A stretch of DNA of 64,000 bases from Aptenodytes patagonicus (taxonomy: Eukaryota > Chordata > Aves > Sphenisciformes > Spheniscidae): the NCBI RefSeq assembly GCF_965638725.1, contig NC_134959.1, forward strand, positions 11,164,417 to 11,228,416, read 5' to 3'. A program made the translations under genes and the position numbers. Position 1 is the first letter of the stretch. Every line of letters begins with the position of its first letter. The notes beneath the pieces are model-generated. The model was not told the origin of the DNA. It worked only from the letters and a program-made list of their open reading frames with translations, and made no database searches. This document shows, piece by piece, positions 32,983-57,616 of the stretch.

Positions 32983-32999
32983 TCCCAGAATGCCTCGCG
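32983..32999 (+). promoter_or_regulatory. ZNF143-like site (CCCAGAATGC..CGCG)
   Basis: TCCCAGAATGCCTCGCG resembles the ZNF143/SBS element, which usually lies near transcription starts of CpG-island genes. It is about 60-75 bases before the TAF4-like ATG, so a short 5'UTR is plausible. Confidence 0.5.
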
Positions 33000-33052
33000 C
33001 GCGGCAGAGGCTGGCGCGCCTGCGCGCTGCGCGGCCGGCTCCCAGCTCAGCG

Positions 33053-33064
33053 CAAGATGGCGGC
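33053..33064 (+). promoter_or_regulatory. TISU / YY1 element containing the TAF4-like start codon
   Basis: CAAGATGGCGGC matches exactly the TISU consensus SAASATGGCGGC, which combines a YY1 site with a start codon for very short 5'UTRs. Its ATG is 33057-33059, the conserved MAAG start. Confidence 0.7.
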
Positions 33065-34227
33065 GGGTGCCTCGGACCCCCTGGAAGAGATGCTGCTCTT
33101 CTCCGAGGAGGTGGACGAGAAGGCGGTCAGCGACCTGGTGGGCTCCTTGGAATCGCAGCTGGCGGGCGGCCGGGGCTCCGCCGAGGCGCCCCAGCTCAGG
33201 ACCTCCGCCCCGTCCCAGCAGCAGCAGCCGCAGCAGCAGCACCACCAGGGGAGCCTAGCGGGGGGCAGCAGCCCCGTCCGGCAGCAGCAAGGGCATCCCG
33301 CGCCTCCTCCCGCTCCTGCGGCAGAGGAGGCGGCGGGCTGTCCCGGAGCCGCGGAGAGCCGAGCCCCTGCCCAGGGGCCGCTCCCCTCCCCGTCCCCCCC
33401 GGCGGCGGCAGCGGCGGCGGCGGCAGCGGCGGCGGCGGCAGGGAGGGGAGTGAGTGTAAACAGTAGTAGTGTGCAGCAATCACATGGAGCGGCTCTCCTC
33501 AGCAGCGGCGGCAGCAGCCCCGGCGCACCCGCCGCCCCTGCCCCGCCGCAGCCCGCTGCCCCCCCGCTCGCCGGCGCCCCTGCCCAGCCTGTCAACAACC
33601 ATGTGGCTGCCGGCGCCGCTACCGGGGACGCAGGGAGCCCCAGCCCCGGCGGCAGCCCGCCCGCCGCCGACGGCGCACGGCCGCAGCGCGCCGAGGCCGC
33701 GGGGGGGAGCGGGACCCCGGCGGGGGGCGGCGGGCCGGCTGTAGCGGCGGAGGGCGCCGCCGGCGCGACCGCGCCGCTCCCCGGCGAGGCGGCGCCCAAC
33801 GGGGAGGGCGCCGGGGGCCGGCCGGCAGCAGTCCCACCAGTCAGCAGCCACGGCAGAGCCGACGCCGCCACAGCACAGACCAAGCCCGCGCACGGCCCGC
33901 TCCCCGCAGTAAACGCACTCAGTAACTCCGCCAGCCCCGCGCCCGCCGCTGCCGGCGCGGCCGCCCCGCCGGGACAGGGCTCGGTCGCCAACTGCGCCCC
34001 ACTGGTCCCCGCTGCCGCGGCCCCCGGCGCCGCGCCCAAGCCGGCGGTCAGCGCCGCGGGCGTCGCCAAGGCGGGCGCTGCCCTCCCCGTCGCCCCCCCG
34101 GCCCCCCAGGCCCTGTCGCCCAGGCCGGCGCTGGGCGCAGCCCCCAGGATCGTGGCCCCCCAGCTGATCGTGAGGCCGCCTCAGCAGACCACCATCCAGC
34201 TGCCCCCCGGCTTCACTATCCCGCCCG
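33057..34227 (+). CDS. TAF4-like exon 1 with start codon
   Basis: The exon has 390 codons plus one base, opening [20 protein letters not shown]. The start is fixed by family similarity and the TISU context. It ends in [12 protein letters not shown] and donor GTAAGTGG at 34228. The downstream reading of this frame to 34439 is intron. Confidence 0.9.
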
Positions 34228-37200
34228 GTAAGTGGAAACGCAGTGGTCGCGGGCTCGCCGCTCTTGCTAACCCTTTTTTCTTGGCTGAGGTTTTTTCTTC
34301 CCAAAGTTGTCGTCTTCCAGCTGCTCGACGTGCTGGAAACAAAAGAAGAGCCACCTGTCTGAGGGCGACGTCTGACAAACAGGCTGCCGTTAATGAGGAT
34401 GTAATTGGTACGGGACGGGCGGTTGCTAATGCAAAGTAATAATGACTGTTGGTTGATGAGTTACTTGTTTTGTCTTAGGGAGAGAGCGGCAGTCACGGTA
34501 AGTTATTTTGTAATGGTGTAGTGAGCAGTTGTGCGCGAGATAAAAAGCTGGGCTGTTAGAATAATTTTATATATGTTTTGAAGGACTATATTTTCTGCTT
34601 TACTCTTGATAGTTTTGAAAAGTTTTCCTTCTTCAAAGAGTGTCTTTTGCCGAGAATCAGGTGGTAAATACAGGCTAATTTGTGTGATTTAATCTAAAAT
34701 GTTTCATTTTGGACATGAGGAAAAATTTCTTTACTGAAAGAGTGGTTAAACATTGGAACAGGCTGCCCAGGGAAGTGGTTGAGTCCCCATCCCTGGAAGT
34801 ATTTAAAAGACGTGTAGGTGAGGCGCTTAGGGACATGGTTTAGTGGGTGGTGGTGTTGGGTCGACAGTTGGACTCGATGATCTTAGAGGTCTTTTCCAAC
34901 CTCAATGATTCTATGATTCTATGATTTCAGTAAGTGTGATGGTGTCATTCTCTGTCGCATCTGGGCAGTCTACATCTCCGGATTTTATTTCTAACTCTGA
35001 AGTAACTGTTGTGTCCTGTCTATTCTCCTTTTCTTAACTTTCATTACTAAAAATTTAAGTTCAGCAAGGTTGCTAACTAACCAAAACAACATCCCTTCGT
35101 CCTAGTGATTCCTACTCTAACTGTATATTGTTTCACCTGAAATTTTGAAGGGTTCTGTGGTCCTCTACTTAGATTTTCATGTTGCAAAGAGTTGGTAACT
35201 TTGTGCCTTCTTGATTTAGGAGATGATTTAACATTTGAATTAATTTTTTATTTTTTGCTATTAATATCAATAGCATGATAATATGTGGAGCTATTGATGT
35301 AGTCTGAAGTAACTTACTTCTTCCACTGTGTTTCTTAAAATATTTGATATTTATTAGCTAAGCGGAGCAAAAATGTGATGGTATAGAAGCTTGCTTCTAA
35401 GTGGACTTCTAGCAGTTGTGTCTTTGGCCATAGTTTATGAAACTCCTGCTCCAAATTCTAATGCTCCAACCAAATAAAGCTCAGTGATTCCATCAAGACC
35501 TAACTAACTTAAAGCAGATAAGAGGTTGCTATTCAGGCTGTATTAGTGCCTTTAGCCTTTGATTTCGTGTTGTTAATCTGTTTGATAATTAATATACACA
35601 TATGATAATGTGCCTCATAACTGCATACAGTTTCTGAAGTTTATTATGTCAATACTTTGTTCTGCTACTTAATTTTCAAACAGAAGAGGAAAACAGAGCT
35701 CTTAAAAGCAATCTGGTCCAAGGTTTAGAAAATGTTATGGAAATAATACTGTGGAAAGTTACAATTTTATTTTATTACAAGATAGTTTGAAATCCATTAA
35801 ATTTGCATAAACATGAAGATAGTATGTTCTAAGATGAAGGTATTCAGAAAATACAATGTTATTTTTGAGTTTTTATTCTTTAAATTAGTGGATCATTTAT
35901 AATTAATTTTGAAACTCCCATATTGTAAACTTCTGTCTAAAGCAGAAATTTAGAATCAGTTTTTGAGAATAGGTTATTTAAGCATATAATACTCATAAGT
36001 TGTGTATTTCATCTTTATGTGGCTGACAGTAAGGAGAAATTAATCTCATAATTTAGCCAGATTCTAATTTGTACGTACTGTTCAGTAAAAGAAATTTAAA
36101 GTCCTCCAAACTGAATTAAAACATAACATTAGTATGTGAACATTTATGCATCTATAGTGGTAATTAAGTCTGCAACTTTTATTGAAACTGTGTGGCATGT
36201 GTTGCAATTAATTTGTCCATTCCATTCAATTTTTTTATTCAGAATGAGTTTTAGAAAATTGGAAGATAAATTAAGAAAACACCTGTGAATCAGTATAATG
36301 CCAATAGAGCGTGTATTTTTTTAATGCATGGTAGGCATTATCCTATGAGGATTTTTATATAAGGTTCACAGTATAATAAGAGAAATGATACCTGTTTGGC
36401 CAGTTGGCAATGTACTAATTTTTTTGTGTCCAGATGGTTTAGGAATGGCATATATCAAGTACATCACCTGCTTACAGAATTTTCTACAAATACAAACCCT
36501 GAGGTTTGGTGCTTGAAGGACTAGTGAGCGTAAAATGCTATCTTTTTAAAGAATTTTTATGGTTTGGGTTTCTTCTTTTTTCCAACTCTTGTTTTAAAGA
36601 TTACTCTCTGGGCTTTGAAAGACAGTTAGGATCATGTCTTTTAGATGTGGTCCTTCCTGTAGCTCTCTATGCCTTTTGCCTTAAAGCTTGATTTCCACAA
36701 GTCTTTAGTTTGTGTGGCAGAAATTTGCCTTCTCTTTGTGCTTTTAGCAGTGACGGTTGGCTGGGAGCACCTAAGACTATGTGAGGGCTTTTATTGGTGC
36801 TGCAGTTCACTCACTGTTTATCCCAGGATTGGGATTTGTATTTCTATGTCAGACACTGAAAGAAAGACTTTCCTGGTATAAGGTACTTTTGAAATTTGTT
36901 ACTTGCTTGATACAATACTGTTCAAATTTCTTTATCCTCATGATATGTTGCAAACTATGTCCATTTACTGAAGTGGTTTTTTTTCTGGGAAGCCAATAAT
37001 TAGAAGTGGATGTAAGCTTTTACCTTCTTTATTTTCCCTTGAAAAGTTAAAAAATATATATGAAGCAATTTGCACATAGGGATAAGTTGCAGAAACGACG
37101 TCTACTGACTTTATCAATAGAATAAAAGTTGACTTCCTAGATCCTTATTTTTTGGTTTTCCAGTAGTTACAGGCAAGATGTTTTTCTGTCTACAGACCCA

Positions 37201-40200
37201 TAGTATCCTATGTGTATCCTATCTAGGTTAAATTATTGAAATGTATTCTGGAACTAACTTGGAAATTCTTGTAAAATAATCTGGCTGGGGAACCGCTTCT
37301 TAATTCTGAGAAAATTAGAGGACGCACATCACATGCTTTGCAGTGATCTTGAATAAGTGTGAAGCTCCAGATGATCCAGGGACCAACTTAACTGTTGTCT
37401 TCCCTTTTCTATCTCGCTGATTGTGGAAAACTTAGGCCAGTTACACTTAGGGCAAAATTTGATGGTACTGGCTGTGTTGTGTAGAAGGCCTCTATTTGTG
37501 AAAATGCGCTACTAGAAAACAATCTGAAAGTATTATCATTTACTTCCAAAAAGTGTTAGGAAACACTTGCCAAGTATTCTGTTAATTTGAAAACAATTCC
37601 TTTGGTGTTTTCCTAAAATATCTGCACTTGTATCATTTTGTGCTGAGGAGTAGTTGTATTGGTTCTCAGGGTATGATGATATTTTTTCTTGATGTCTAAA
37701 CTACAGGTAGTGCCTCCCAGTACAGTGATGGTGGGTGCCAAATAAATCCATGTGTTAATGCTCAACAATTAAGTAAATCTCAAATATTGTATACTCAGAA
37801 ATGTGTCTGGCCTAACGTTTGCATGTATACATCCCCTAAAGCTGTTGTTTTAGTAAAGCCCTCATGTCATTGTCCCTGGTATGTTCATACTGAATTCTGT
37901 TCTCAGCTACTGGATTGTCGTTATAGTTTACTTTTAACGAATACTTCTTTCTAATTTTATTCTGCTGACCCTGGCTAGACTGCTGAAAGTCACTGTACAC
38001 CTGTACACTCAAGTGGCCATTTTTTTCATCACTTATCCATAAACTGCAGTTATTTGAATTCCAAACTGAATTGGGTATTAGTTTTTGTCTGCTAGTAGGG
38101 GCTCCTTTTCTTCTTTGAAATAAAATCTCATGTTACACCAGAATTAAAAAAAAGATACAGTATAAAGAAAAATGTACAGTGCTATGCCTTAATTTTATTC
38201 TGTATTCTGTAGTTAGATAGTTCTTTATATATAATTCTTCATATTATTCTTTATTCTATAGTTATTGTTACTTTCTTCTTATTAGGTATGGTCTTGGTGC
38301 GCACGGATGCTGGACAGCTTGTAATGGTGCCTCAGCAGGCTCTAGCACAGGCTCAAATGCAGGCTCAAGTACAAACGCAGGGACAAGGTCCTACCAGCAT
38401 TTCACCTAGACTTTCAGTGCCCACAGCTGGCCCTGTTTTTCGCCTATCAACAACTCAGGTATGTTTGGCTTGATTTCACTTTACTTTTGTGCATTATGTT
38501 TTAGCTTTAGCTAAACATTATTAACTCATATGTTTTTGCGAATGTGCTTTCCTCCCCTTTTTTGTTGTGAAAACAGGAAATACTTATTCAAATGCAGTTT
38601 ATTTTCTGAGGCCTAGGAATTTTTTTTGTATTTCAGAAAAAATCTACTTTATAGAGTCTCTCAAGACCTTGTTCAGACTGTGAGATCATTGGAGGCTAGG
38701 AGGCTCACTTAGCCAGAACTTAGTTTGGATTGTATGCCACTGGTTCAGTAAGCGCCCCTTGTTCCTCTGAATCAGAAGCATTGTGATATCCCCGCATGCT
38801 GAATGGATGCACAGGATAGCTAGATTTCACTAGAAATTAGAAAAGGAAAAGCCAAGCACATTCAATACAAGGATTTGCAATAATTAACTTTTCTAATATA
38901 CGTTATTCAAAAGAAAGGTTTGATTCCTTTGATTCACCGCTGGGTGTGATCTGTCTATACTTAAAGTTTTGTCTGTGTTATGACTACATTTCCTTTTTTA
39001 TATGGATTGACAGGATAGTGTGCTTTCCTACCCCAAACTCTTCAGTGGAGTGTGTTTATTTCAACTCAGAACTGATTTATTTTCAAGGGTGAAGGTGTAT
39101 TGTTTTTTAAATTCCTTGGTAGGCTGTTATTGGTTTAAAATTTTGTAGGGAGGCTGTTTAGCTTCTGGCCGTTTGGGGCTAGAGCTGAACTATCTTACTA
39201 AAATGTAGAGGCAAACAGCTTTGGATGTTAGTACAGGGCAGCTGTGCCATAATAATAATAGTTTAAGGTAGTTTTGCCTAAGGTCTTTGTTTGCAGAAGT
39301 GATAAGTAATTACGAGTGGAAGTAGATGAAGAGGATGTCTTTATAATTTTTTAACTAATCGTTGTATAGGTTGCTTGAAATAACTTAAACATGTATTTCC
39401 CGATGTTTAACATTTGATTACTGTCGCATTATATGCTTTGTGCATTACACCATATTTATAGTCTAAAAAATTATTAAGTTTAATTCAAAACTGAAAACAA
39501 CGATAAACTTTTCAGAAGAGAAGGAAGCCAGAATAAAATCGGAGCCTTGAAAATAAATTACTAACATGAGGCAATCTAAAACACAGGGTAGCCAACTAGA
39601 ATGTAAGTTTTAGAAATGACTGTCACTAGGAAGTTTGTAGCTCAATGGAATGTATCTCAGGAAAGACATAAATAAAAGCCTGGAAACACTTGAAGAACTT
39701 AATGCTTTCAGAAAAAGAGCTAAGTGTAGTATTGGATGGAATTCGTAAAAGAACTCTTCGCAGAGAAGGCAGCCATTTAATGTTTAAATTTGTGATATCT
39801 GGAAGGATGAGAAGACTTGTAGAAGCCTTCAAAGATAAATGTGTTTCAGGAAAAATAAGCACAGAGATAAGCTTGTGTTAATTTCAAGATTTTTTTGACT
39901 AGTTTGATGACAACAAAAATCCAGACAAGTTCTTCAGTTTGTATGTCTGTCTTTGGTTGTTTGGGTCTTTCTTTGTAAATAAATAGTCAGTTCTTTAGCA
40001 GCGACTACAAGGATATATACAAGGGACTATATAGCACACATTCTAGCAATGGATCCTGAGACAAGTGCATAGCATAAATGGAAAACAGAAATTGTGGGGT
40101 GGGACTGTACCAAGAATATGATCTCAGTCTGTTAGAATGAGTTTGTTTTAGCTGTTTCTGTTTCATACTGTTAGTTTTCATGTAACTTTAACTGCTGTGG

Positions 40201-43200
40201 CCAGCATACAGAATTAAAATTCAGAGTGGCAACATTGATAGCGAATTAAATAATAACAAATTGTCTGTAGTTCGAAAATGTTTGAGGAATCCACCTTTAT
40301 TGTACATAGAATCTTAGGAAGCATACAAAAATGTAGACCAACTGCTTGGCTGTGTGTGTTCAGTCTTTATTAAAAGACTGGAGTTTGGATCCCAAAGTCA
40401 ACCTTAAGATGTGTGCATAGCAAATGTTGGGAGTTGATCATGTTGGCCTCAGGCAGCTGTTCTTTAGTTATATGAAGCAGTTAAGGTTGCAGAAAGAGTA
40501 TAATCTGACTTGCTGGATTTATATAAAAATAAACCTGTGAGGATACTGCATGTTCATGTGTTTGTAGAGGTACCTAAAATCTGAAGGAGTTCAGGTATTA
40601 GAAAGATGTAATTGTTTTTGTGCAGTTCTGCCCAGATAAATACCCCACCGCATTATAGATATTCCTTTACACTTGTTAGTGCTAATAAGCTGGTTGAGAA
40701 TAGAGGAAACCAGCAAGGCCTTATGAATGATAAACGTCTTACAGGATGCAAAAGTTTGATTATTTTAGTGTGGCAGGATTAGAATCATGGTATTGTAGCT
40801 TGTCAGGATTCATCTCCTTTGATGGATCTTTGAAGTAGCTGCCCAAACTGTACTGCATCACTTCTTTATTTGTTGTAATTAACAAGGATAAGAAATAATT
40901 AATATTGTCCTTGGGAAATGTACATTGAACTTCCATGACTCTGCATGTGGTCTGCAGACTCTTCTTTTATTTTTACAGTGCTTATGTTTTAGATATGTTT
41001 GACCTTAGAATGTTCTTTAAAAATGATGGTTGACAGCCTTTTAAAACCAGATTGTAAAGGTTTAGAATTCTGAAGGTTCATCATATCAGAACTAGATACT
41101 AGACTTCTGTTTCATTAGGTGGATGGTTTATAGCCAGAGACTGTTCATCGGTTTTCTGGGGGAAATGTCCAATGACAAATATTATGCTAAGGTTTCAGAA
41201 GTGTCAGTTATTTGTTTGAGTAGCCATTATGATTAATCAAGAAAAAGGATCAAGTTCTAAAATACAGGAAATTGTGTGTACTGAAAAATAATTTTTTCAG
41301 TGAGTTTATAATTAAACTTTTTCCTTTCAGAATCAAATTCTGATGTGTCAGAAAGCTAAATTCTGTCAATTAAAATTTTCAGTAGAAATTTAAAATGTGT
41401 GGAAAATAGTGTCTTATGTTTTTATGTCTTTAAAGTATAATATTCAAGAGTCCTAGCCTCCACTGTGACTGAAACACAGAAAAATTGTGTGTGCCATTAG
41501 CTCAAGACAGACAGAATATAAACATTAATTGCTTGAGTCCTGTGAAATATTTTGCCAGATTGATGAACATTGCAGGCTATGTGGTTTTAACCTCTAGAAC
41601 ATCATACCTCTCTCTCCAATATGTTAGTGGAATGATTGTTATTTTACTGTGCAGAGCTCATTAAATTTACTACTATGTTTTTATTAAATTATTTTAAGAT
41701 AGCTTTATTTGGATTAAAATGCAAGATGCTTTAAATATGTAGAATTTAGTGATGTACTTCAGTCACTGAGTTTGTGTTTTACTCTACTTTTACCGATGTA
41801 GAAAGTCTATGCAGGTGGAAATTTGCAGTCTACCATAAGCATTCTAGGAGATAGTATCCTACTACGAAGAATGTATGATCTGTCTCAGAAAAGCCGTAGC
41901 TTTCATGGTTCATAGGTATTATGGTTGCTTTTCTTCAGATTGTCCTAATTTTTAGCCAGTGTCAAGTGTGACAAGTTACTCAGCTAAGTGATTGTTTTAA
42001 TTGTTATAGTTAATTTGTATATACACTTTAAATAATTATTGTGTTAAGGAAGTGTGTTATGAGCTATGTAGTTAGATGTAAAACACAGGTTATTAAATAA
42101 CGCACCAAAGAAATTGCAAAAGCTGGCAGTAACTCTTGGCAAGTCATTAAGAAGTGTTGAGAGTGATAACTTGAGAATATAAAATGAATTATGAATTACC
42201 TTTTTAAAAATTACAAGAAAAATAATCTGAAAAATTACCAAAGTGTTCATCTAAATTTGAAAGCTCTTTGAATCTCTCCTCTCGACAGCTAAGTAATTTC
42301 TTCTTCACTGTCAAAAAAGGACAGGGGAAAATAAGGAAATGTTTTAAATATTCTTAAATGAGATTGACTTGATCGGTACATACAGCACTATCCAGATTCT
42401 AAACTGCTTCTGCAGTCCAGTAGTATAACAAGATTTTCTTCCCATATCCCAGGGCCATCATTTGATACATCTTCTCCCAGTTATTTGGGAGGAAAACGAA
42501 ATCAGGTTTCCCATGAAAATTCCTCTAGCTTCAGTAGATGGGCTTAGATCCAGGACAGCATGTGAGGAAGGAGCCACCTTTCTCTAGGAACAGTGGAAGC
42601 TGCTGAAATAGAGAAAGTGTAGTCTGTTTTCCCTTAGGATTTAGTATATGGGCTTAGGATAATGCTTTCCTTGAAGACAGTGGCTTTATCCTTACATGTT
42701 GCATTGCTGAAGGTTCAGAAGTCAAATTATTTACCTTTGTAGGGAACTGATACAGCCATCCCTCTTCCCTTCCCAACTTAAAAAAAAAAAAAAATTGATT
42801 GCAGTGCCAAACACAAAAGTTCAGAAGGATTAAGATACATAACTTCCTGTTCATCCTACATTAATCTCTTCTGTACATGTGCAGTGTGTTACAGTCTTTG
42901 CATGATAAATGCACACAGATAAAAGTTTCAGCTAGGCAATCAAGGCACACAATTGATGTTGCACAGCAAACAAATCTGATGTTTCTTACATTTTGAGTGC
43001 TTGGCTTTGCTATTTAAGTTATTGTTTGACTTCTATTGTTTGTAATACCTTTGTCTCATTTTTTGCAGCTTTTAGGAGTAGAGGATGTAAGCAAATGTAG
43101 TACAGTTTTGGGGACGATGTTGCGTTGGATTCTTGGAAGAAGATAGGCAAATCCATTTTGAAAGGAAGGCTTGGGTTCTTTTTTTGACTCTTAGGTGGGG

Positions 43201-46200
43201 TGATCTTTGATTAGATGTTTACTTCTGCTCCTCTCAATTGCTGCTGTGTAAAATATGAATAAAATCTGTTTATTTTCAATTCATAGTGGAATTCTGGAAA
43301 ACTGGCTAATCAGGATAAGCAAGTACCTTGTAGGAAGGGTCTCAATTCTGATCAGTTTAATGCCAAGCTCAAAGGCTCTGGAGCATGGGAATGTGTCCCA
43401 AAAGGATGTACAGTGTCTGAAGCATGGAGTTGGAAGTAGTGAAATGGATTCAGTCAGAAGAATCAGAATGTGAAAGTAGCAGAATAGTACAGAGAAAGCA
43501 GTAATTGAGAGAAGTACCTGTAATAGGATGATGTACTTGATACTTTAATGATCTTTTACATTTACAGTCTTTCTGGTTTCTTTAAAATGTTCAAGAAAAG
43601 CATGAGTAGGTACAATTGTACCATAAAATAGTTTTACTTTAGGTTCAGTTATAAGATTGTAGAGGACTGTAATGGGGGGATATTAACTACAGCTAACTAC
43701 ATTTTATTTTTTCTTTTTAGGGAAAAAATACTGCAAAATATTCAGGTATATAAAAATAAAACATTTTTGAGATTGTGAATATAAATTCATCTTCTTGATG
43801 CAGCTACCAGAGGCGCTTGACTTTTTTAAATTGGTATCCTATGTTTTACATGGAAGTTACTCAGTCCTACGGAAGATTATAATAATCTTTTGATGTGTTA
43901 AGAAGTGTAATTTTGTTGTACTGTGAATACATTTTCAGTGATAACATGCTTGTTTCAAAAAACATATTTAGTGAAATAATACAGATTTGGATGTTTAAAG
44001 CAAACATTGGTTTGAGTTAACTGTGCATAATTTTAATTGAACAATTTTCTCTTTCTTCATTATTTTAGTTTCCTTTAAGTTTTTGATTGACGTGAATTTT
44101 AGCTGAATATTAAAAAGTGATTAATGTTGCCAAAATTTTATCTGCTGTAGGATCTTAGTTAAGGTACAGGACTTTTAGGAAACAAGCTTTAATTTGATGG
44201 AACTTTGGTTGATTTTAGAAAAATTTTGTCCTGGATTCTTGTATTACAAGCCGGTCAAATAAGCGTGGGTTTGCTTGCATTGCTATATTCTTCAGAGATA
44301 ATAAGTAAATTCAGAAGTCTTTTAAAACTGATTATTTAGATTGCATTGAATTTTTGCCTCCATATCTTGTTTTGAAGCTTGAACTTGGAAATTATGAAAA
44401 ATAGGCAGGTGCTGCCATCTAGTTTTTCTTTGGTGAGTTTCTTTTGTTTATCTACATTTTTCATTTGTACAGTTTATGGCTTTTCATGCTTTTGACGCAG
44501 ATTTTGTTTGCTGGTTTCAGTATCTTAGTACCCAGTTGGGTTTACATTCATAACCAAAAATGAAAAAATAAGTTACTTATTTTAAATTATTTTTAATTAA
44601 AATTATTTTATGTTACAAAGTTAAAGTGTTGCTGTACACCAAGAATATAAAGTGACTATCATACAGGAAAGACCAATGTTAGCCTGGCCGATAATATTTT
44701 ATTACGGAGTATCTGTTATCAGAACTTAGGAATAAGGTGAAATAGCGTATGTTGGAATTTTCATGAGACTGCTGCTGAAAATGGATTTGGTCTTAGAGTT
44801 TACTAATGTTTTTGTTTCAAGTTTGATTCAAAATGTGTTTTCCAGTATTAAGCTGCTTTGTATATTTTTAGCTATCAGAAAAGGTAGTGTAAAGTTATGT
44901 GTGAATTTTGATGGTTTAGTCCAAATATTTAGGCACATAAGTGGGCAACTTAACAATTCTTCTTCTACAAATATGATTATCAATCACTTGAGTTTTCTTT
45001 TCATTGCATAAATAGTCCATTCAATATGTATCGATGTATTTTTAAGAAAATTACAATTCTTTTCTAGCTTTGTTTTTTCTTGCTTTAGGCATTTTTCTAA
45101 CTTCTACTCTTCAGAATTTCAAGGTCATGATATAAACTTCACTGATTTGTTTTCTGTGTTTTGACATTCACTTTCTGCTAAGTTTTACCATCCTTTTTTA
45201 AAATGAAAAAAAAAAAAATCTTTTGAACTTGTGAAAAGTGCTGAATCACCTGCTCTGGAAGTGGCTATATTTTTGCTATGAATTATGGTTGATGCAGACA
45301 ACAGCAGCTTAGTCTTTGCCATCACATGTGATGTTGAGAGCAGTTTTAAACTTGGCTGACGTTTCACAAGCTGTTCTTGCTAAAACGGAGCCTTTCAAAT
45401 CTGAGATAGTTCTGATAATATGCTATGCCTGTGTTTTCAGCAGTGTTTGTATTTTTATGTCATATTTTAGTTTTGGTATTTATTTTCTTGTTTGAGCTCT
45501 TTTTTTTTTTTTTCTTTTTTACTGTTTTTCCACACCCTTTTTGCTTTTCTGATAAATGCTTATTTTACTTTTTGCAGAAATTTTAAGCAAATCGATAAAT
45601 CTTTGTTTTTGCCTGAGGTGCATGACCACTATTATCAAATAAGCTATTCTGTACTATTTCTTTTGTATAGACAGTTTTGGGGCTTCTTCTGCAATATTGT
45701 GCAGAAGACATTTGTGTTAGCAGGGCAGGTAGGTTGAAAGGCCAGAGAAAGTAAAAAACGTATGGTCTCGGCTATGATTTAACCACAAAACCATTTTCCT
45801 TCCTTTCCTTCATGGTAAGTGAATCTTTTCTGTATAAACAGATAATAAGTTTTTACTACTTACAAATTCTACTGTTTACATTTTCATAGCATTAACATAT
45901 CTTTTAAAACTTCTTAGAAAACACTCAAACATTATTAAGGCCGTAAAATTAAACGTGCAAAGATCAGAAAATGCTATAAAGAAGGTTCCTGAGCAATCTA
46001 ATAGTGGCTCCCATGTGCATATGCATTATGCTGCATGACCACATACTACTGTTATTTTTAATTTCTACAGTGTGTAGGCTGGACAGTCTTAATGAAGAAT
46101 TATGTAATTTTTTTTTTCTCCACTGTTTAGTGTGTTGCTTCGGGCTTCTTTGCTGCATATTATCTAAGCCCCCCCTCTGAAGTGGGAATTAATAACCAAG

Positions 46201-49200
46201 CAGGTTTTTTTGTGAAGCTTATCCCTATAACAACTTTCTCAACAATGCAGTTAAGGGGATTATTAGCCTCTTTTTATAAGTAGAAAACAGAGTCTAATTG
46301 TCTCTATTTTAAATAATAAAATAAAAATACTGGTTAATTTTTTGTGTTCAGTTTGACTTCATTGTCTTCAGTTGCAGCCGTGACCACTCCTGGTCACAAA
46401 CCCCACGTTTCAAGTTGTCCGTTCATAAATATATGGCATAAGAGTATTGATTACAATAGATTATCTATATTTGCATGCAGTACAAGCACTGAGCAATTGA
46501 GGCAGGGGTAGAATCTAATTGTAGGGCCAAAATTCAGCTGCTTTTTATCCACCAGATTCTTTGGATGAATCCTAGTGATTATAGATGGACTAGCCACTTC
46601 ACCAGGGAATGAGAAAGTACTTTGATAGTGGATTATATAGGTACTTGCTTACACCAACAGGATGCTGAGACTTCAGAGGTAGGGGTTTTGGACTTAGAAC
46701 CCCTGGTTTCTGAAGGTTTTCTTTGGCGGCCCCAAGCTCCTCTGCCTATCTAGTCTAATTGCTCCCAGTCCTGTGTCTTCGTCCCCTGTTGTTGTTCTAG
46801 TTCGTGAACCCAAAAGGGATGTCACAAATAGGAGGAACACAGCAGCGTCTCCCTGCTTTGGGTTCTGATGCTTGAATCCAGCGATGCTGTGGTGTCCCAG
46901 AACTGTGGTGGCAATTAAGGTTCTGCCTCTGTTGGCTGACTTGTTAGAGATTCTGCCTCCAGTCATTTTCTGCAATTGTGTGCAAATGTTGAGTTTTTAA
47001 AGGGTTAATACTTTGGCTCAATTTGGCTGTATTTTTACCAGAGTGAAAAAATGAAAATACCTTAATAGTAGGTAGTTACCAGCCATGCCTATAAGAAAGG
47101 TTGTATAAATTAGTTACTCTAAAATGAGCTACCAGATTTGACCTTTAGCCTATGCTTCTGCCAGTGTCTGCAATCCCACCTTAGTTTTCTCTTTGTTAAA
47201 CGCTGTCTTTTTTTGTTTGAGGCATTGGGGCATCTTAGCATGGCCTATTTTGTTTGTAAGAAGTCTTCTGGATTAATGATTAAAAATAAAATTGAGTTTT
47301 ATTTCAGATTTTGCAAATTTAAATCTAAACTTAAAGGTCATATTCTGCTAAAATTGAGTTTTGGATAGTACCTAGCGAAGCCATGTATTGGAAGACACAG
47401 AAAGAGGTGTCATGATGTGTATTGCGATAAACTTGCCCCTGCTTTTCTGTTAATGTTTGTTCAAATGCTATTGGCGTATTTTCTTTCTTCCTTTTGTGAT
47501 TGATAGTGGCCACGTTTATTGACAGGACTGATCATGAAGTGATACATGCAACATACTTGTCAAAAGTAAGCTCTCTTGCTTTGTAGTGCAGAGACTGTTG
47601 CTGGTACCCGGAGTGTTCATCAGTAGGTGGTACTATAGTACAAAATAAAAGTATACCACAAACCTGTTTCCAAGGGTTTACATACATTGGTGTACTAACC
47701 TGTGGCAGTTTAAATTGTCTTGGTTTTATAAAGCTGCGAGTACACAATGCAATCCCTAAAATTGGTGTAGTCCTGCCTTGGCAGTGACAAATAATCCCTG
47801 GATATTTTGGCGTATTTTCTCCATATTCAAGTGGCCTGCTTTTTTCAAATGCAGCCTTGTATATTCCTTCGAATACAGAGGCAGCAGCTTGTTTGTGCAC
47901 AGCAGGTACAATGCGATTCACTCCTGTTCACGCCTCAAGCTTTGCCTCTCTATTTATGTGTCTAGAGCTCTGGGGAGAAGGTCTACACAGGAAAGTTAAG
48001 ATGTAGTTATTTAGGGAGTGGATTTACAGGACACAGAGTAATTCCACACTGACTTCTTCCGTGAACAATTATAATGTGCACTGACTGCCTTTGTGGAAGT
48101 GACTTACTGCACCCTGAACTGGAGTCACTTGCATTATCTGCATGATATGTGCAGGCAGAATGAACCTGGGGACATCCCCCCTCCAAGCTGGCCAGACATG
48201 AGCCAGATCTGTTTTGAAATCCTTATTTCCACAGTAGCACTGTGGTGTGCTCCACTTAAAATTTCTAGCCTCTCTGTGTGGACAGAGCCAGCTCAAGTCT
48301 GTATACAAAAGGCAATCTTAAGCATTCCCAAGTGTCCCCATGGAGATTGGTAGGGGATTATATACTGTATTCATTCATGTTGTAGTTTCCTGCCTGTTAA
48401 TGTCTGAGTACAGGGGAAAAGCCTCTTAAACATTACTTTCATTTATTTAGGAAATAGAAAAATATGTGTCTAATCAAAAATAATACAGTTACATTTGAAA
48501 ATATATTCCTTTCTAAGTCTCTCTTGGTAATTTTGGAATTTAATAGCATCATACCAAACCTTAGCAGTTTTTCTTTAAAGAACATAATAAGTTCTTTTAG
48601 ATTGTTCCAGTAGGAGCTTGACACATTGGGTTATAATTTTTTTAAATACTGTTTAAATTTTTTGTTTTCTTTTTGATGGATTTCTCATGAGATCTGTTTA
48701 CAGCTTTCCTTTCATAGAAAACACAGCTATTTGTTTCTAAATAGTTTTCACCAGTTCTTCTTGAAGTATTTGTGTTGGGAGTCCTTATAGTCTCTTCTGG
48801 CAACTTGTAGCTGTCATTTGAAGATCATTTCCACGATATTTAAGAATTTCTCTAGGCTAGTTCCTTGTTATGTTTCTCATCCACTCATTTCATACTTACC
48901 TTTTTAACATTTAGGAGGTTTGGAACCACATTAGTAAACTGCTACATTACTTTGTTTGCAGTTCTTTGGTAGTAAGGCTTTTTCTTCATATCCAACACAT
49001 TAATAGATTTTACTGCCATTTTGTATCAAAGGCTTTTGTAACTATTGATTTTTAAAACTGAAGGTGAATTTAGTCGTCATGTTGCAGAGTTTGCTCTTGT
49101 GGTCTGGCACGGTGGAATACTATGTGTGGCATGTATTGCATACTTAGTTGGATAATATGCTGTTACGATACTGAAATTTTATATTTTAATTATATGCGGT

Positions 49201-52200
49201 TTTGTTTTCAAGTATGTTCCTGTGATGAATTGTGGGCATTTATTAGCTAAGAAAAATTCTCTAGCTAGCAGTCTGAGCTATGTATTTCTGGATTTCTGGC
49301 TGCAGATCTTTCTTGGAACTGAGTAGCTGCCAGAAATTTGCCTGGCTATCTGCTTGCTTTGTAAATCCTCACCTCTGGAAGCACTTACTGACAAGAAGGG
49401 GGCATATAACACAAGCATGCTGTATTTTTAGGTTGGAAACGCTGATTATAAGCAAATGAACAAGATAACACAGTATTTATGTTTTTAAATACAAACATTC
49501 ATCAGGTAAATAAAGTTTCTTTCAAGCAGTATTTTAAGGAAATCGAAGCAAGTGATCTTCTTTACAGTGAAGAAAAGAGGTATGGTATTTAAGAACAGAA
49601 AAAGCTTATATGGTCCTTCTTCCAAAAAGCCAGACAATTCTACCTGTTCACGATGATGCTGTTTATTGCCTCTAGGCTGTCTCAGTATGGAAGACATCCC
49701 TAGTCAAGATTTTAAAAATCTTGAAAGCTATCCAAACAAAAAAAAGGGTTTTGTTCAGATGTCAGGTAGATTTTTTTTTTCTTCTTTCCTTTTTTTCCCC
49801 AAGTACAGAAGATTGATATCCAGTAGATGATGTTGCTGGACTGATTGGTAAGGAATGCTTGGGGCGTTGAATGCCTGCCTGGGCCTCTGTTCCTTCTGGA
49901 GATCTCTTAAGTATATTGGATGTTCTTTGAAGAAGTATTTTATGTAGGTTTAATAGTGTAAGAATCTAAAATAAGACATTCTTTATAAAAATACTAATTA
50001 TAGAGACATATAACTTAAAATGTAAATCAAGAAAAACTAGTTTTATCTTGTGAGAAACAATATTGTCCATGATTTAGTACTCCAGCCGCTTAGAAAATTT
50101 GTCTTTTCTAAGTATGTGTTTGAATGCAAATCTTAATAAATGGAAGTTATGAGAGACCAGTGGGGCCTCCATTTTTAATAATGAGTAGTTCTCTTTTTGT
50201 CATAATTGCCATATTGTGTGATATATATCTTCCATAATGGTATTTACATTCCTATAGAATTAAATAACAACTTTCCTGGAGTCATTTTTTATTCCCAATT
50301 CTTGTCCTTTTATATGATGGTAAGAGATTTCAATCTCTCTCTCCCAATTAAAGTAAATTACAAAAACAATTAATATGTTTGCTGCATGAGGCAAATTTAC
50401 TGAATTGTAGAGTATGCCACTGAGTGAAAGGCTGTAAGCCAGTCATTTTCCTTTGTCTGCACTTAACATTCCAGTTGCTGTCTGGTTACAGAGTGTGCGT
50501 TCTATGACAAAGATTCTCAAAATGCTTAGACTTCATTTCTATGCAAGTTAGTTTCTATATAATTTAATCTGAAATTATCTTGAAAATATTTTTCTGTTCT
50601 CTGAATTTTCTCTCCATATTAATTTTCTTCAAGAAAAAGCGCTAGAAAAGGCCAGTAAATACCAAAATGACCAATATGTGTTACTGGCAATTACAAACTC
50701 AAATATTGATGAGTACTGACATGTAAATACTACAACTGAACTAATACAGCAATGTAACATCAATTTTTTGCAGGTCACATCCTATTTTTTCTAATCTTCT
50801 CCACATATCTGTATGAGAAACAGCTTTTAGGAGAAATATTACAAACATATCATTGAACATAAAGCTAATTCTTGCATTATTTGTGAATATATATTTAAGA
50901 ACATGTTACTGTTTTTGGCTTTTTGCAGCGTTAATAATTATTATTCATGTAATCGCTATTATTAAAAACTCCTGGAGATCAAGTTACTAAGGAGGAAAAA
51001 AAATAAAATGGTTATTTTTCCTTTATTAGCAACCAACTTCTGTAGCCACATCTACTGTCCGCCTAGGACTTCCAGTGCAAGCCAAAGTTGTTCAATCAAC
51101 TGCTACACCTGTCAGTGCTACGTCTGCTGCAACTCTGCCAGGAGGCTCTATTCTTTCACATACCACAGTAAGTAGTAAGAATATAAAAAGCAAAAGATGG
51201 GTGAAGAAAAGAATGTTTGTAATTACATTTTTTCGAAAGTGAATTTTAATGTTCATATGTTTGCTTTTATCGCAAACATAATCCCAGAAATTAATAATGA
51301 ATGTACAGTCAGACTGTGTTATGCAGGTGCTGAGTGATAGCCTAGATCTTATTTTCTGCTGTTTCCTAGATGATAAAAAAAATGGGGGTAGCATAGATTC
51401 AGTTTTGAGCTTTTTTTGAAGAAAAAACTTAAACCAGCTGGACTCACGAATACTGTGTCAGTGGTGGACATGCTGTACTACGTTTGTCCCCCGTCAAGAG
51501 CTGTGGTGTCTGCTGTGTGCCGCAGGATCCACAGCATCACCTGTGGCATCGCAGTGCAGGTGATTGTGTCAGCTTGTTCTGCATCTGTGCCCAAGACAGA
51601 GCAAAGTTCTGCAGTCAGGCTGGACTGGGGGGTCCTGATAGCTTCTGCTCATCATGTTATGCTGCCTGGCTGAGCTCTCTAGCTTCTGCAGTCCCATTTG
51701 GTGTGTCTGAGACTTTTTGGCACTTGAAAGGGTGGCATGTAGGGTCAGATAAAGTATGAGAGCTGAACTGGATGGTGTGTGTGTGTGGTGCTCTGTGCAG
51801 CCTGATAAGCTTTCCAGCCTTCTAAGGTTGAGGAGCATGCAGCACAGCCTTTGTGTGTGGCCCAGCTAGGTCCAGAACAGCTTTGCTAGGGCTTTGCACT
51901 GGTGCAAAAGCACATATGCTGCTGCTGGGTTCAGATTAGGTTGGGAAGCTGTGTTAGTGCATTTGTATCATTTGGATCTGAGCTGTCACTGTAACTGTGG
52001 TATAGATAACTGTAAACCTGATGACATGACCACAGATCATTGGGAATTGACTTGTTTATTTTAAGGGCCAAATTTACAGAAAGTTGAGTTATAGAAGTAA
52101 CGGTGATCTTAAAGGGCTGGATAATAGCAACTCATTTTTTAGTGGTACATTTATTTTTGTAATAAAAAGAACTTTAAAGGAGGACTTTCACTGTTCACTA

Positions 52201-55200
52201 AAGGGTGACAAAATTAGGGTTATAATAAGTAAGTAAAGTCAATGGTTTTATTTTGCCAGTAAGTGTGTATTTGAAAGGAAACAAGTTTTTCTTGTCAGGC
52301 TTTCAAGAACTTGGTGGTTGAGTAAAAGAACTAAAAGAAGATAATTACCTGTTTTTTCAATATAAAATATTGATAGGTATCAGTAGCTACAACGAGTGCT
52401 CAAAATTTATTCAAGACAACAGTAGCAACTGGAACATCAGCTTCTCAACAACCTGCAGTAATTACTGGTGGACAAACTCAAGCTTCAGCACAAAACCAGG
52501 GTCAGCCTCGGCTGCCGCTTCCACCTCATACAACAGCACAAGTACCAGCACAGCCCCAGGTCATACCAAGCTCTCCTGTACCTGGAACCACAGTTGTATC
52601 ACAGGTAAGTTTTTTAAAATACTAGATACTTGGTTTTCTTAGTACTTCATGAACTTCTAAGGTCTATTCAGAAGCAGAAAGAACTCTTTCTTCATGCAAG
52701 CACACTTCCCGTGACGAAGCAAATACTTTACAAACAAGAAACCCTTCCCCTCATTTCAACTAAATGGGATACAAATTCTGAGAGGGAGGAAGAACACTTG
52801 TGGTCAGCTTTCTCCATCCTGCCATGTATGTGTCAGTAGTGAAAGAGCTATTCTGTTTCTCCAGACAGAGCAATCAGGCCTTCAGTCTATGGACTTCATT
52901 ATTATCGTGTTGCTGGGCCTCAAAACTGTGGTTACACTGAAGTGTAAAATTTCTGTTTCTCGGAGTAACTACAACATATAAAAATAATGGCTTGAAAAAA
53001 TTAGAGCATCTGTTTTCCTACTGATGAAGAAAAGATTAGATATGATGATGTTTGAAGACTATTTCTAATTTGACATTACTGCTGTAGCTGCATTGTACAA
53101 AAACATACTGAATCAATAATTTAACAAATTAAGATAGCTTGGGGAACATTGTACATTGTGTATTGGGCATCTCAAAGGAGAATGCATCTCCAACAAATTG
53201 TTGTGTTACTTCTTATTTTTAAGGTTATTTCTATCAAAACAGACTGTAAAATATTAAATATATTTCACTGATTTTTTTTGTTAGTATTCGTGAGGTATGA
53301 TGTTCAGTTACATAAAGAAGTGAAGAAAATGTCAGGTAACTAGCAGCACTAGTAAAATAGCTGCAGATGTATTTCAAATGTGTCCTGCCTGAATTGGAAT
53401 AATTTCATCATTTTCCCTCTTTATAGGGATCAGAGCATGCATTGATCCTGATTGGAAAATAGATTGTATCTGCTACTTGTTTTCTTTGACTTTTGCAGGA
53501 AATGCAAGAGAATGTGAAAAAATGCAAAAACTTTTTAGCTACCCTTATAAAACTTGCTTCTCATAATTCACCGTCTCCGGAAACGTCCCGTAATGTGAAA
53601 GCTCTGGTTCAGGATTTGTTGGTAAATAGTTATCTTTCATTTTGTCAGTTGTCTATTAAGCTTGTTATTTACGTATGCTGAAAACTATTGTTTTGATCCT
53701 AACAATTTTTTTGCTGTAATGAAAGTGAAAGGAGTTGGGCTACATCAAAATGCAAATATTCTGTACGTTACATATCTTCAAAAATCTGTTAAAGGTAGGC
53801 TTTGTCTTAGTTTCTGAAAGGGGAAATGCAACAAAGTATTTCATATGCATTCATCAGAAACACTATTGTTTTGATGGATAATATTTTGGTCATTTATTTA
53901 GAAAAATAGAGTAAAATACAGGATTTTTTCCTTGACGATTCATTGTTTCTTTTCCACCAAACCATGGTCTTTTCTGAAACAGTAAGAAGCTATTAAATGT
54001 TTTAACCACAGAGTGAATGTAGATATATGCCTCCACAACATGGTTTAGAGTTTCTAGGACTGAAGGAAAAGTATTTTGCTAAGCTGCTGAGTCCAAGCAG
54101 TTCTGCAGACAGATGCCCCTGCATGGAGCCTTAACTGCAAGTGGATTTCAAGAGGCAAAGTTGTGTTTCAGCTAGATGAGTCCTTGGGCCCAGAAAAAGT
54201 CTGACTTACTGTAGTCTCCAGTGCAACATATGTTTCAATGAATTGTATAAACGCGTTGCAGACAGATGTTACTGTGGAGCTGGACAAATGGTCAAGCTTC
54301 TTAAATTAAATATAGTCTATGAAGAACTTGGATTTAAAAGTAGTTGATATGTTTCTTCGAATTCATTGACAGAGAAACCTTTGTATTTTAGACAAGCCTA
54401 AGACTTTTTCCAAGTATGAGCCATTCAACAATTACATTCAGTGGTTCCAGTAAAATCTTGTTTTAACTTTTGAATACTAAGAAAGATTAACTAAGTAAAG
54501 GTAACAACTTATAATATTTTAAACAAAGTGAGACACATATATAATAAATATATTTATTAAAAGTTGTTTTGGTTTGTTTGTTTTTGTTCTTGTTCTGTAT
54601 CAGTCCAGGAAAGCTAATGAATGTTTTTATTACAACCTGAGATTGTAACTAATGATACTTTAGAAGTATTATAAAATACATCTGGGTTATAGAGTTCTCC
54701 TGTATTAACTACTAAATAAACTACTGAATATGTATTTCATATATTTGTAAGTGTATATTTTGTGAGTATATACACATATATATACATACACACATTTATA
54801 TAGGTGAAAATTTTATATATATATACACTTATGTATACTCTATATATGCATATGCTTTACATATATAGTTTTATATATATGTATACACATTCTGCTAAGT
54901 TAAATTGAGCTTTCAAAATTGGTTTTGGAATTAAGTAAAGATATTTTCTTATTACAAGGACTGACAAATTTTATAATAGTTTGTAAGGTTACTTCAACAA
55001 CCTGGTTTTTTATTCATATTTTTAAAAGGAAGTCACTATGTAAATGTTAGCATAGGAATCCCAAAATACCATTGGAATCCCAAAAAAGACTTGAGTGTTT
55101 GTGGGATCTCGTTGTGTCTTCAATTGTGCATCCCCAAGGGAACTCCCTGAATTCTGAGTGGCATGTTACGTATATAAATTAGCTCTTGACAGAAGGATTT

Positions 55201-57616
55201 TATAGATACAGAGGAGTTGAGGGACTTCAGCTTTGAAAGTTCTTCTTGATATGGTTAGCCTATTTAGCTAGAGATATATACATATGGATATATGTATATA
55301 TACATATATTTTTCCAATATATGGAAAAAAAACCCAACCAAACAACTGAACTTGAGGAGTTGATGCTTTTTTTTTTCTTTCCCCTGAAGGATGCAAAGAT
55401 TGATCCAGAAGAATTTACAGGCCGCCTTCAATCGGAACTCAAATCATCTCCTCAGCCATATCTTGTACCTTTCCTTAAGGTAAAGTGAATATTGTTCAGA
55501 TAAATTTATTTCAATGCAAATATCAATACATTAAGTTTTAGAATATGCTTTTTAAATGGAATCAGCTTCACCTGTCTAGAGCAGGACTACTCAATTTTTA
55601 CTTTGTGCTGCCAATTTCTGCCGAAATCTTCTTGGCTGGAAGTCACGTGCAGGCTCCATCTCTGTCAGGCCAGCCAGGTGCTGCTTACTGCTTTCGTGGC
55701 TGGGAGCTGTGGCTGTGTTCTGCAGCTGACTGCTCCCTGACGGGTTGAGAGAATGGTAAGAAATAGCGATTTCCTACGGGAGGGAGACCTTATGTGTTTG
55801 GGGCCTTGGTTTAGGTTTAAGAAAAATTTATTTGTCATCCAGAGCTGATCTGGAATTTACTGCTTGAGTAGCCCTGATCTAGAACGTTGTAGTAATTAGA
55901 TTTATATAAAAAAGCAGTTACTCCCTCATTTGGAAATCATCTATTATGTATTCTGTAGTGATCCTTTACTGTTATAATGCATACACTTTTCTGTGGTAGT
56001 AGCTCATTTTTTATGAAGTACAGCATTCACATTTGGAAGAGTTACAAGTTATTTCTATTGAATGCTTCAAGTAATTTAATAAGCTCTTCCCATATTGTTT
56101 TTGTAATCTACATTTGAGTCATTGATAACTTTCAGTGCATGTGTAACGGTGATTATGAAAAACTAAACTGGATAATGCTGTTGAAATAATTGATTAGCTG
56201 ATCCTGCTTGTAATCTGGAACTAATCTATAATAGAAGTTCTAATGTGATACCAAATGGATTTATTGTTGGGTCCTAAGTTAGTATACGTGGGGGTAAATT
56301 TATCTTTTAATTGGTTCTTGTACATTAGCTACAATAGCTTCCATATGCAAGATGATGTACAAACATACAAACCGTGTTTAATTATGCCCCAACAAAACCA
56401 CAACTATAGTTTTAAGTGTTTTTCTTCTAGTCCAAAACTTCTCAGTTTAGGGCAGATTTCCTCTCTTTCTTCTCTCCCTTCAACTTTTCTTCAGAACTCT
56501 CTCCCTCTGCTTCTCTTTTTTCAAGTTATCATTAACCCTTATTTGTGTTTTTTCCTGCTCTTACACTGCAGTCACTTCTAACATCGTGATAAGTTTTAAC
56601 TTGTTTCCCTTCTTTGAAGTCCTTTCTTGGCAACAGGCATTAAGTTTTTAAATAAATATTAGAAGTTTAGAAAGAACTGTAGCTTGGGCTAAACACTTGC
56701 ACTGTACAGCCGCCTCGGGGGAGCACTTCAAAAGAACACTACTACCACTTAGAAAGTAAAAAGTTTATTCGTGAAGGTACAGTATAGCCTTTTAGAACTA
56801 TATTTTTTGGTTGAACTGGTCTGAACATGAAGCATACAATAGTACACTTTTCTAGTCCAGTCAGAATATATTAGATCAGTAATAATACAGTAAACAGCTA
56901 TTGCTGTAGGGCATCAACAGTTAAATCGTCTTGTTCTAGGTACTGGAGGCATGTCAGGAGAAGTAAATTGGTGCAGCTTACTTCTTCTAGTATGCAATGG
57001 GAATAGAGTTGTTCCTGTGGTTCTGCCTTTTCTGTTTCCATTTTTTGCCCTTCCAAAGACCTAAGCTACAAGTTCTAGGTAGTCTTGAGGAGGGGAGTGT
57101 TAGATTTTACTGCTACTGTGGAATTAGGGCACATCAAAATCTACGGGGTTGCTAAATCTAAATTGAAAGCTTATTAAAAATGTAAACTGAACTTTCCCTC
57201 TTACAAAATATGTTCAGTCTTACTTTTTTGATGAATAGGCAGATAATAAAATTGGAAAGAAAGCTGCATTCTTTTAATTATGTTTACAGCAAATCTCAAA
57301 ATATTTTTTTTGTCAACCTGCTAAATTTGATATTTCATAAACTTTCTTCTCTTTTTAGAAAAGTCTACCTGCATTGAGACAATCTTTACTGAATAGTCAA
57401 CATTCAGTTTTGCAAGGACAGCCGTCTCAGCAGTCACTTCAACAAACCAAGCTATCACAAGTTATACCTCAATCTGCCTCTGGAAGCATTTCCTCTGTTG
57501 TCACAACGCAGACAATAGGAATAAGGCAACCAAACAACATTTGCACAGTCTCTGTATCAAATACAGTGCAGCCTCCTCAGGTTAAGGTGGTACAGTCAAA
57601 TCAGAGTTCTCAACTG
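33057..57616 (+). CDS. TAF4-family TFIID subunit (TAF4-like, probable third paralogue), first seven coding exons; 3' part beyond window
   Basis: TAF4 proteins are TFIID subunits: the C-terminal histone fold pairs with TAF12, and the TAFH domain binds activators. Coding exons: 33057-34227, 38286-38458, 51030-51167, 52377-52604, 53499-53621, 55390-55479 and 57359-57616, giving 727 residues so far with all phases joining. Features: N-terminal helix [19 protein letters not shown] (about 19-37), Ala13 tract (116-128), Pro/Ala/Gly-rich region to about 370, QLPPGF/IPPGMVLVR box (about 378-396), Gln-rich [16 protein letters not shown], and TAFH domain (about 574-649: [38 protein letters not shown]). 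By eye it is about equally similar to recalled TAF4 and TAF4B, and its linker exons match neither. No FRDxDDINDV histone-fold exon was found before 64000. Orthodox TAF4 remains the alternative. Confidence 0.88.
33402..33440 (+). repeat. GCG/GCA codon repeat encoding Ala13
   Basis: Thirteen consecutive Ala codons (pattern GCG/GCA) give residues 116-128 of TAF4-like. It is a candidate length polymorphism. Confidence 0.9.
34228..38285 (+). other. TAF4-like intron 1
   Basis: About 4.1 kb; contains the CR1 copy at 34713-34926. The rest is AT-rich with no supported gene. Confidence 0.65.
34713..34926 (+). mobile_element. CR1 LINE, 5'-truncated 3' end
   Basis: The segment begins ATGAGGAAAAATTTCTTTAC, runs through GGAACAGGCTGCCCAGGGAA, GAGTCCCCATCCCTGGA and GATGATCTTAGAGGTCTTTT, and ends in tandem TGATTCTA units (34915-34926). 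This is the hallmark 3' end of chicken-repeat-1 elements; only the last 210 bases or so are present. Good preservation suggests a fairly young bird subfamily. Confidence 0.95.
38286..38458 (+). CDS. TAF4-like exon 2 (Gln-rich)
   Basis: Acceptor TTATTAG is followed by [20 protein letters not shown] then a Gln-rich run, ending LSTTQ and donor GTATGT. It parallels the TAF4 segment PGMVLVRSENGQLLMIPQQA. Confidence 0.93.
38459..51029 (+). other. TAF4-like intron 2 (12.6 kb)
   Basis: This is the longest intron in the window. It is mostly AT-rich. GC-richer unassigned patches near 46500-46980 and 47540-48360 may be old repeats. An imperfect direct repeat (AGTAGATGGGCTTAG / AGTATATGGGCTTAG) lies near 42533 and 42646. 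I see no supported exon, RNA gene or CR1 copy. Confidence 0.55.
51030..51167 (+). CDS. TAF4-like exon 3
   Basis: Acceptor TTATTAG and donor GTAAGT bracket 46 in-phase codons reading [20 protein letters not shown] then a Ser/Thr/Ala-rich stretch to SHTT. I find no close counterpart in recalled TAF4 or TAF4B; it is accepted on splice signals, phase and composition. Confidence 0.8.
51168..52376 (+). other. TAF4-like intron 3
   Basis: Contains a distinctly GC-richer block at about 51430-51960 that looks inserted (see findings). No gene is seen. Confidence 0.55.
52377..52604 (+). CDS. TAF4-like exon 4
   Basis: 76 in-phase codons from [20 protein letters not shown] to [12 protein letters not shown] lie between acceptor TTGATAG and donor GTAAGT. 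It is Gln/Thr/Pro-rich, the style of TAF4 activator-binding linkers, but unlike TAF4 or TAF4B in detail. Confidence 0.83.
52605..53498 (+). other. TAF4-like intron 4
   Basis: About 0.9 kb, AT-rich, no feature recognised. Confidence 0.6.
53499..53621 (+). CDS. TAF4-like exon 5 (TAFH domain, first part)
   Basis: Acceptor TTTTGCAG, then [20 protein letters not shown] and a variable loop, ending [20 protein letters not shown] is nearly invariant in the family. Confidence 0.96.
54746..54890. repeat. TA/CA-rich low-complexity (imperfect microsatellite)
   Basis: Interspersed TATATA and CACATA runs over about 145 bases, several self-complementary. Confidence 0.8.
55274..55322. repeat. TA-rich palindromic stretch
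   Basis: ATATATACATATGG followed by ATATATGTATATATAC is strongly self-complementary, about 70 bases before exon 6. Confidence 0.7.
55390..55479 (+). CDS. TAF4-like exon 6 (TAFH domain, second part)
   Basis: Thirty codons [20 protein letters not shown] plus [10 protein letters not shown], donor [18 protein letters not shown] is the family signature; DAKI agrees with TAF4B and PYLVP with TAF4. Confidence 0.96.
55480..57358 (+). other. TAF4-like intron 6
   Basis: Contains the hAT MITE at 55582-55876. The rest is AT-rich without a supported gene. Confidence 0.6.
55582..55876. mobile_element. Non-autonomous hAT (Charlie-like) MITE with target-site duplication
   Basis: The left end CAGGACTACTCAA and the reverse complement of the right end CAGGGCTACTCAA match at 12 of 13 positions. 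The flanking 8-mers are GTCTAGAG and ATCTAGAA, sharing the TCTAGA core typical of hAT/Charlie insertions. The 295-bp body has no transposase frame, so it is a MITE-like element. Confidence 0.8.
57359..57616 (+). CDS. TAF4-like exon 7
   Basis: Acceptor CTTTTTAG opens with KSLPALRQ, the end of the TAFH domain, then 78 Gln/Ser/Val-rich residues ending [10 protein letters not shown], donor GTAGGT. Later exons lie to the right of the window. Confidence 0.94.

Follow-up and report, generated by a model that had tools for sequence, protein, structure and literature searches.

A third TAF4-family gene, probably an early vertebrate duplicate, in Aptenodytes patagonicus

Beside TAF4 and TAF4B, the genome of Aptenodytes patagonicus carries what seems securely to be a third gene of the TAF4 family. 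The stretch of DNA analysed here (the window; 64,000 nucleotides, C11:11164417-11228416 of a searched genome of 1.35 Gb in 618 contigs) holds, with good confidence, the 5′ part of this complete gene, a duplicate of early vertebrate age whose product is likely a TAF12-paired substitute for TAF4 in TFIID. TAF4 is a core component of the transcription-initiation machinery. Descriptions of TFIID mostly come from mammals, which have TAF4 and also TAF4B, a variant subunit rich in germ cells. The gene found at 33057-57616 of the window, together with its downstream exons, is called TAF4x in this report. An initial annotation of the window had proposed it as a third paralogue, and this is borne out by the separate TAF4 and TAF4B genes of the same genome, on C14 and C2, respectively.

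The TAF4x model comprises 15 exons, seven in the window and the remainder up to ~117 kb beyond its end (Table 1). The seven exons predicted within 33057-57616 were all found, with compatible phases, AG/GT borders, and 727 residues in sum. The coordinates given there stop at the seventh exon, at 57616, which is not the end of the gene; eight further exons belong to the model. Thirteen exons were joined from contiguous sequence and two from profile-search loci, giving 3177 bases, or 1058 codons with an intact frame and a single terminal stop. GT follows all 13 exons from contiguous sequence and AG precedes all except exon 1, which begins with the ATG start; for exons 14 and 15 the splice borders were inspected visually. 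The encoded protein is made up of a TAF4-type start, a TAFH domain, and a histone-fold/C-terminal region. For comparison with the CpG island at the first exon, a stretch at 40-42 kb has a CpG obs/exp of 0.16 and a GC of 0.34.

Table 1. Features of TAF4x and its neighbours in window coordinates; exons 8-15 are in window-equivalent positions.
Feature	Position	Strand	Evidence or remark
SS18L2-type neighbour	5005..6230	-	start MSVAFVPERLRGKAEVNQET at 6171-6230; SSXT matches 5898-5987, 5005-5085
LSM14A-type neighbour, Sm domain first half	27394..27504	-	rest 19390-19509; FDF domain in 13253-13639
CpG island over presumed promoter and exon 1	32300..34300	+	CpG obs/exp 0.84, GC 0.72
Exon 1 coding part: TAF4-type start, long Ala/Pro/Gly-rich stretch	33057..34227	+	start and end match human TAF4 PDB chains
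Exon 2	38286..38458	+	splice sites; 53% identity to C14 TAF4 exon, 45% to C2 TAF4B exon
Exon 3, Ser/Thr/Pro-rich linker	51030..51167	+	phase 0-0, splice sites
Exon 4, Gln/Thr/Pro-rich linker	52377..52604	+	splice sites
Exon 5, TAFH first part	53499..53621	+	Pfam TAFH 1.1e-11; 71% identity to TAF4 exon, 73% to TAF4B exon
Exon 6, TAFH second part (DAKIDPEEF...PYLVPFLK)	55390..55479	+	Pfam TAFH 3.6e-12; 73% identity to TAF4 exon, 80% to TAF4B exon
Exon 7, KSLPALRQ end of TAFH region and linker	57359..57616	+	splice sites, phase
Exon 8	67270-67375	+	beyond window
Exon 9	71761-71875	+	beyond window
Exon 10	79159-79328	+	beyond window
Exon 11	98586-98716	+	beyond window
Exon 12	100712-100837	+	beyond window
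Exon 13	110792-110848	+	beyond window
Exon 14	136710-136832	+	beyond window
Exon 15	180631-180798	+	beyond window

Exon 8 is the least certain of the model; its placement relies on phase and splice sites, on composition, and on a similarity score that is weak. A first scan for an exon between exons 7 and 9 returned only junk. A scan constrained by phase and donor returned 45 candidates, and 67270-67375 had the highest S/T/P/Q/V/A share; a longer version (end 67426) has a higher similarity score, and joining exon 7 straight to exon 9 through a donor 4 bases further on likewise keeps the frame open. The frame continues from exon 14 into exon 15 with no intervening exon, and a small additional exon may lie between them. 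Comparison of linker exons 3 and 4 with TAF4 and TAF4B gave no clear counterpart.

RALLK and the stop codon close the last exon; one AATAAA overlaps the stop and a second starts 135 bases past it. A run of 21 A (L043:1785-1805) starts 12 bases past an AATAAA downstream of the stop; it resembles a copied poly-A tail and sits behind a last exon that has a normal splice acceptor. At the other end of the gene, TAF4x has a single long first exon, whereas exon 1 of the local TAF4 seems split at about C14:4285.2-4288.6 kb, where the start motif and the PPG end are ~3.3 kb apart and in different frames. An Rfam search of the window gave 0 matches at gathering scores. Repeats at 34700-34900 (intron 1) and at window-equivalent ~94722-95295 (a later intron), which we take to be CR1 3′ ends, also match one place in the TAF4B locus.

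The TAF4-family N-terminus and TAFH domain named by the initial annotation are both present. Exons 5 and 6 each carry a TAFH match above the Pfam threshold, and the start region resembles the human TAF4 start (i-E 5.1e-4, PDB search). A downstream histone-fold region, whose absence had been named as a ground for rejecting the gene, is found in five exon matches on C11 to PF05236, the TAF4 C-terminal/histone-fold family. These matches span 79.2 to 180.8 kb in window coordinates and cover model positions 1-63, 56-102, 99-142, 158-196, and 223-262 of 262, leaving 143-157 and 197-222 unmatched exon-wise. The whole genome has at least 15 PF05236 matches, with C14, C2, and C11 carrying five each. 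Because the matches to TAFH and to PF05236 exceed the cut-off and follow the exon order, the similarity is beyond chance. In PDB searches, the joined conserved parts of TAF4x aligned to human TAF4 as four segments running from the start through to the final residue (E 2.7e-167), the TAFH domain matched 2p6v at 1.7e-31, and the TAF4 histone-fold chain 1h3o was matched at 2e-19.

Selection on the coding sequence was assessed in five exon blocks of 189 codons. TAF4x agrees with TAF4 at 131/189 residues and 15/49 fourfold sites, and with TAF4B at 129 residues and 19/49 fourfold sites; between TAF4 and TAF4B the agreement is 130 residues and 18/48 fourfold sites. Silent-site identity across the three pairs is thus 31-39%, near chance. 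Since the protein is conserved against near-chance silent sites, selection has presumably acted on TAF4x through most of its history, and we infer from the five blocks that its constraint is of about the same degree as that of TAF4 and TAF4B.

The product of TAF4x would most likely pair with TAF12 through its histone fold and would take the place of TAF4 in core TFIID, yielding a TFIID variant. PMC12871804 counts TAF4 among the five TAFs of which core TFIID has two copies each, so that mixed TAF4/TAF4x complexes would be possible. Given that the TAFH domain, histone fold, and C-terminal domain are kept, replacement of one or both TAF4 copies by TAF4x is the plain expectation. In mice, Taf4b is suggested, in PMC9984434, to replace lost Taf4 and keep TFIID whole, which makes exchange of paralogues within TFIID plausible. 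The substitute could offer activators and co-regulators a different TAFH surface and a Gln/Ala-rich region. Its role would probably be confined to a restricted set of cells, as is that of TAF4B in the germ line. PMC7010400 describes mouse Taf4b as enriched in germ cells, and Drosophila nht and Arabidopsis TAF4b, which are the fly and plant alternatives to TAF4, as tied to and serving germ cells, with an origin stated to be independent of the vertebrate alternative TAF4 genes. It is on this published description that they are set beside TAF4x, for which a restricted, perhaps gonadal, role could reasonably be guessed by analogy.

TAF4x could instead be a real, old duplicate that no longer serves TFIID, being in early decay or acting as a free transcriptional regulator. 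The linkers have indeed diverged freely, but all 15 exons are open, the conserved C-terminal region is intact to its final residue, the protein is conserved where silent sites are near chance, and a CpG island covers the start; we therefore regard loss of the TFIID role as unlikely.

The neighbourhood of TAF4x bears on its age. SS18-type and LSM14-type genes, proposed earlier as neighbours, both lie inside the window. Their exact names, SS18L2 and LSM14A, like SS18L1, LSM14B, PSMA7, KCTD1, KCTD15, CHST8, and CHST9 elsewhere, are presumed, with family matches as their basis. On this naming, the gene order is SS18L2-LSM14A-TAF4x-KCTD15-CHST8 on C11, SS18L1-PSMA7-LSM14B-TAF4 on C14, and SS18-TAF4B-KCTD1-CHST9 on C2. 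The SSXT matches listed for the genome (6/6) fall at C11:11.170, C14:4.241, and C2:51.538 Mb, and a TAF4-family gene lies close to each of these places. The five LSM14 matches listed comprise two beside TAF4x, two beside the C14 TAF4, and one on C10, and the 14 Sulfotransfer_2 matches listed include C11:11.431 Mb past TAF4x and C2:51.169 Mb past TAF4B. A KCTD1-type exon adjoins the TAF4B region at C2:51.394 Mb, 43 kb past the gene. Its best other match (11 listed) is a KCTD15-type exon at C11:11365046-11365192, 88% identical and 20 kb past the TAF4x stop. The BTB_2 family search gave no match at C11:11.365 among 44 listed and so missed KCTD15, which means that the other family searches may also miss genes. 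No LSM14 match at the C2 locus, and no KCTD or CHST match at the C14 locus, is among those listed.

When the loci are turned alike, their common strand order is SS18(-), LSM14(-), TAF4(+), KCTD(-), CHST(-). In this order and orientation SS18 is repeated at three loci, and LSM14, KCTD1/15, and CHST8/9 at two each. The initial annotation had expected TAF4 by LSM14B and TAF4B by PSMA8. The former is supported by the LSM14B- and PSMA7-type genes beside TAF4, where three exons of the proteasome search lie. For the latter, none of the 20 proteasome matches listed falls near TAF4B (C2:51.17-51.54 Mb) or TAF4x, although the search works exon by exon and may overlook genes; PSMA8 is presumably the neighbour of TAF4B in mammals.

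Ohnologues that date from the early vertebrate duplications would be expected to have matching neighbourhoods of this kind. The match suggests that TAF4x is a duplicate retained from those genome duplications beside TAF4 and TAF4B, its origin dating to early vertebrates. In humans, LSM14A and KCTD15 presumably adjoin with no TAF4 gene between them, and loss in the human lineage would be the simple reading. A recent or lineage-specific copy, whether tandem, segmental, or a retrocopy, is very improbable. The 21-A run behind the last exon is of a kind seen in retrocopies, but TAF4x has fifteen exons with introns, which in the conserved part sit at the intron places of TAF4. In addition, it is 27% diverged from the local TAF4, against 2.5% between local and human TAF4, and has four neighbour families in common with the TAF4 locus, the TAF4B locus, or both. 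We read TAF4x as neither a recent nor a processed copy.

Comparison with the two known paralogues sets TAF4x apart from both. The TAFH domain had been described as about three quarters identical to each; the likeness to both holds, and the identity is somewhat lower, at 60/90 residues for the local TAF4 and 63/90 for the local TAF4B. Over 322 aligned residues, TAF4x is identical to the local TAF4 at 235 (73.0%) and to the local TAF4B at 217 (67.4%), which makes it neither. Against human TAF4 (7edx chain and others), the C14 gene matches 89/90 residues of the TAFH block and 187/194 of the histone-fold block, and TAF4x matches 60/90 and 144/194. In an unrooted tree, human and local TAF4 form one pair and human and local TAF4B another, each with support of 100/100, and TAF4x falls in neither; the human TAF4 row was taken from PDB output, and that of human TAF4B is a presumed sequence. 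With a fly TAF4 row, likewise a presumed sequence, as the root, TAF4x lies outside TAF4 and TAF4B with support (77.1/72) too weak for a conclusion. A PDB profile search for a fungal or insect TAF4 outgroup returned human TAF4 chains and four weak matches (E 0.31 to 1.6). By grouping with human TAF4 and by position beside LSM14B, PSMA7, and SS18L1, it is the C14 gene and not TAF4x that is the TAF4 orthologue; by grouping with human TAF4B (the presumed row) and position beside SS18 and KCTD1, the C2 gene and not TAF4x is that of TAF4B. That TAF4x is merely the TAF4 or TAF4B of this species at an unusual place, as the same domain order and the similar TAFH identity to both might suggest, is held refuted, and its probability is close to nil, given orthologues elsewhere with their own neighbours, the unrooted tree, and identity to human TAF4 of 314/322 (97.5%) for the local TAF4 against 233/322 for TAF4x.

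TAF4x nevertheless has features of each paralogue. Like TAF4 (TAF130/135), it has the N-terminal start motif, TAFH, histone fold, and a C-terminal domain extending to the last Leu-Lys, and the order SS18-type, LSM14-type, TAF4 is common to both loci; it differs in its divergence in the conserved parts and in its linker exons. With TAF4B (TAF105) it has in common KI.PEEF and FLKKS in TAFH, the final RALLK of the local TAF4B, and KCTD- and CHST-type neighbours. The initial annotation was correct in calling DAKI and FLKKS TAF4B-like, but the TAF4B of this genome has EAKI. Unlike TAF4B, TAF4x has a TAF4-type N-terminal start; three short strings of this motif were absent from 70 kb of the TAF4B locus, a stretch with TAF4B exon 1 at its edge. 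The TAFH domain is also common to the ETO/MTG family (RUNX1T1, CBFA2T2, CBFA2T3), in which it is called NHR1, and the best PDB match of TAF4x to that family is 2.4e-9. At the other TAFH-bearing loci of the genome, which we take to be ETO/MTG genes, no PF05236 match is among those listed.

A full-text literature search that included portions of PMC12871804, PMC7010400, PMC9690401, and PMC9984434, and did not cover the main review, found no report of a third vertebrate TAF4. The strings ‘Taf4l’ and ‘Taf4c’ in the relevant part of PMC9984434 are the mouse labels Taf4-lox and Taf4-CBC, and the term ‘TFIID subunit 4-like’ occurs in a honey-bee paper (PMC10138211). Genome databases may well already annotate TAF4x as TAF4-like. 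A third vertebrate TAF4 may be named in the 2019 review by Antonova and colleagues.

We lean slightly towards the broader view of a third type of TFIID, with its own TAF4 subunit, in birds and possibly also in reptiles, amphibians, and some fish. The gene for this subunit would have arisen in the vertebrate genome duplications and, in mammals, disappeared from the interval between LSM14A and KCTD15. If so, mammalian TFIID would be a reduced form, and mammals would manage without TAF4x. If TAF4x has been kept since the vertebrate duplications, some non-mammals would have an extra means to vary the core promoter machinery. The LSM14A-KCTD15 interval offers a clear locus for tracing the gain and loss of TAF4x, and comparing the gene with TAF4 and TAF4B is a natural way to study how those two divide their tasks.
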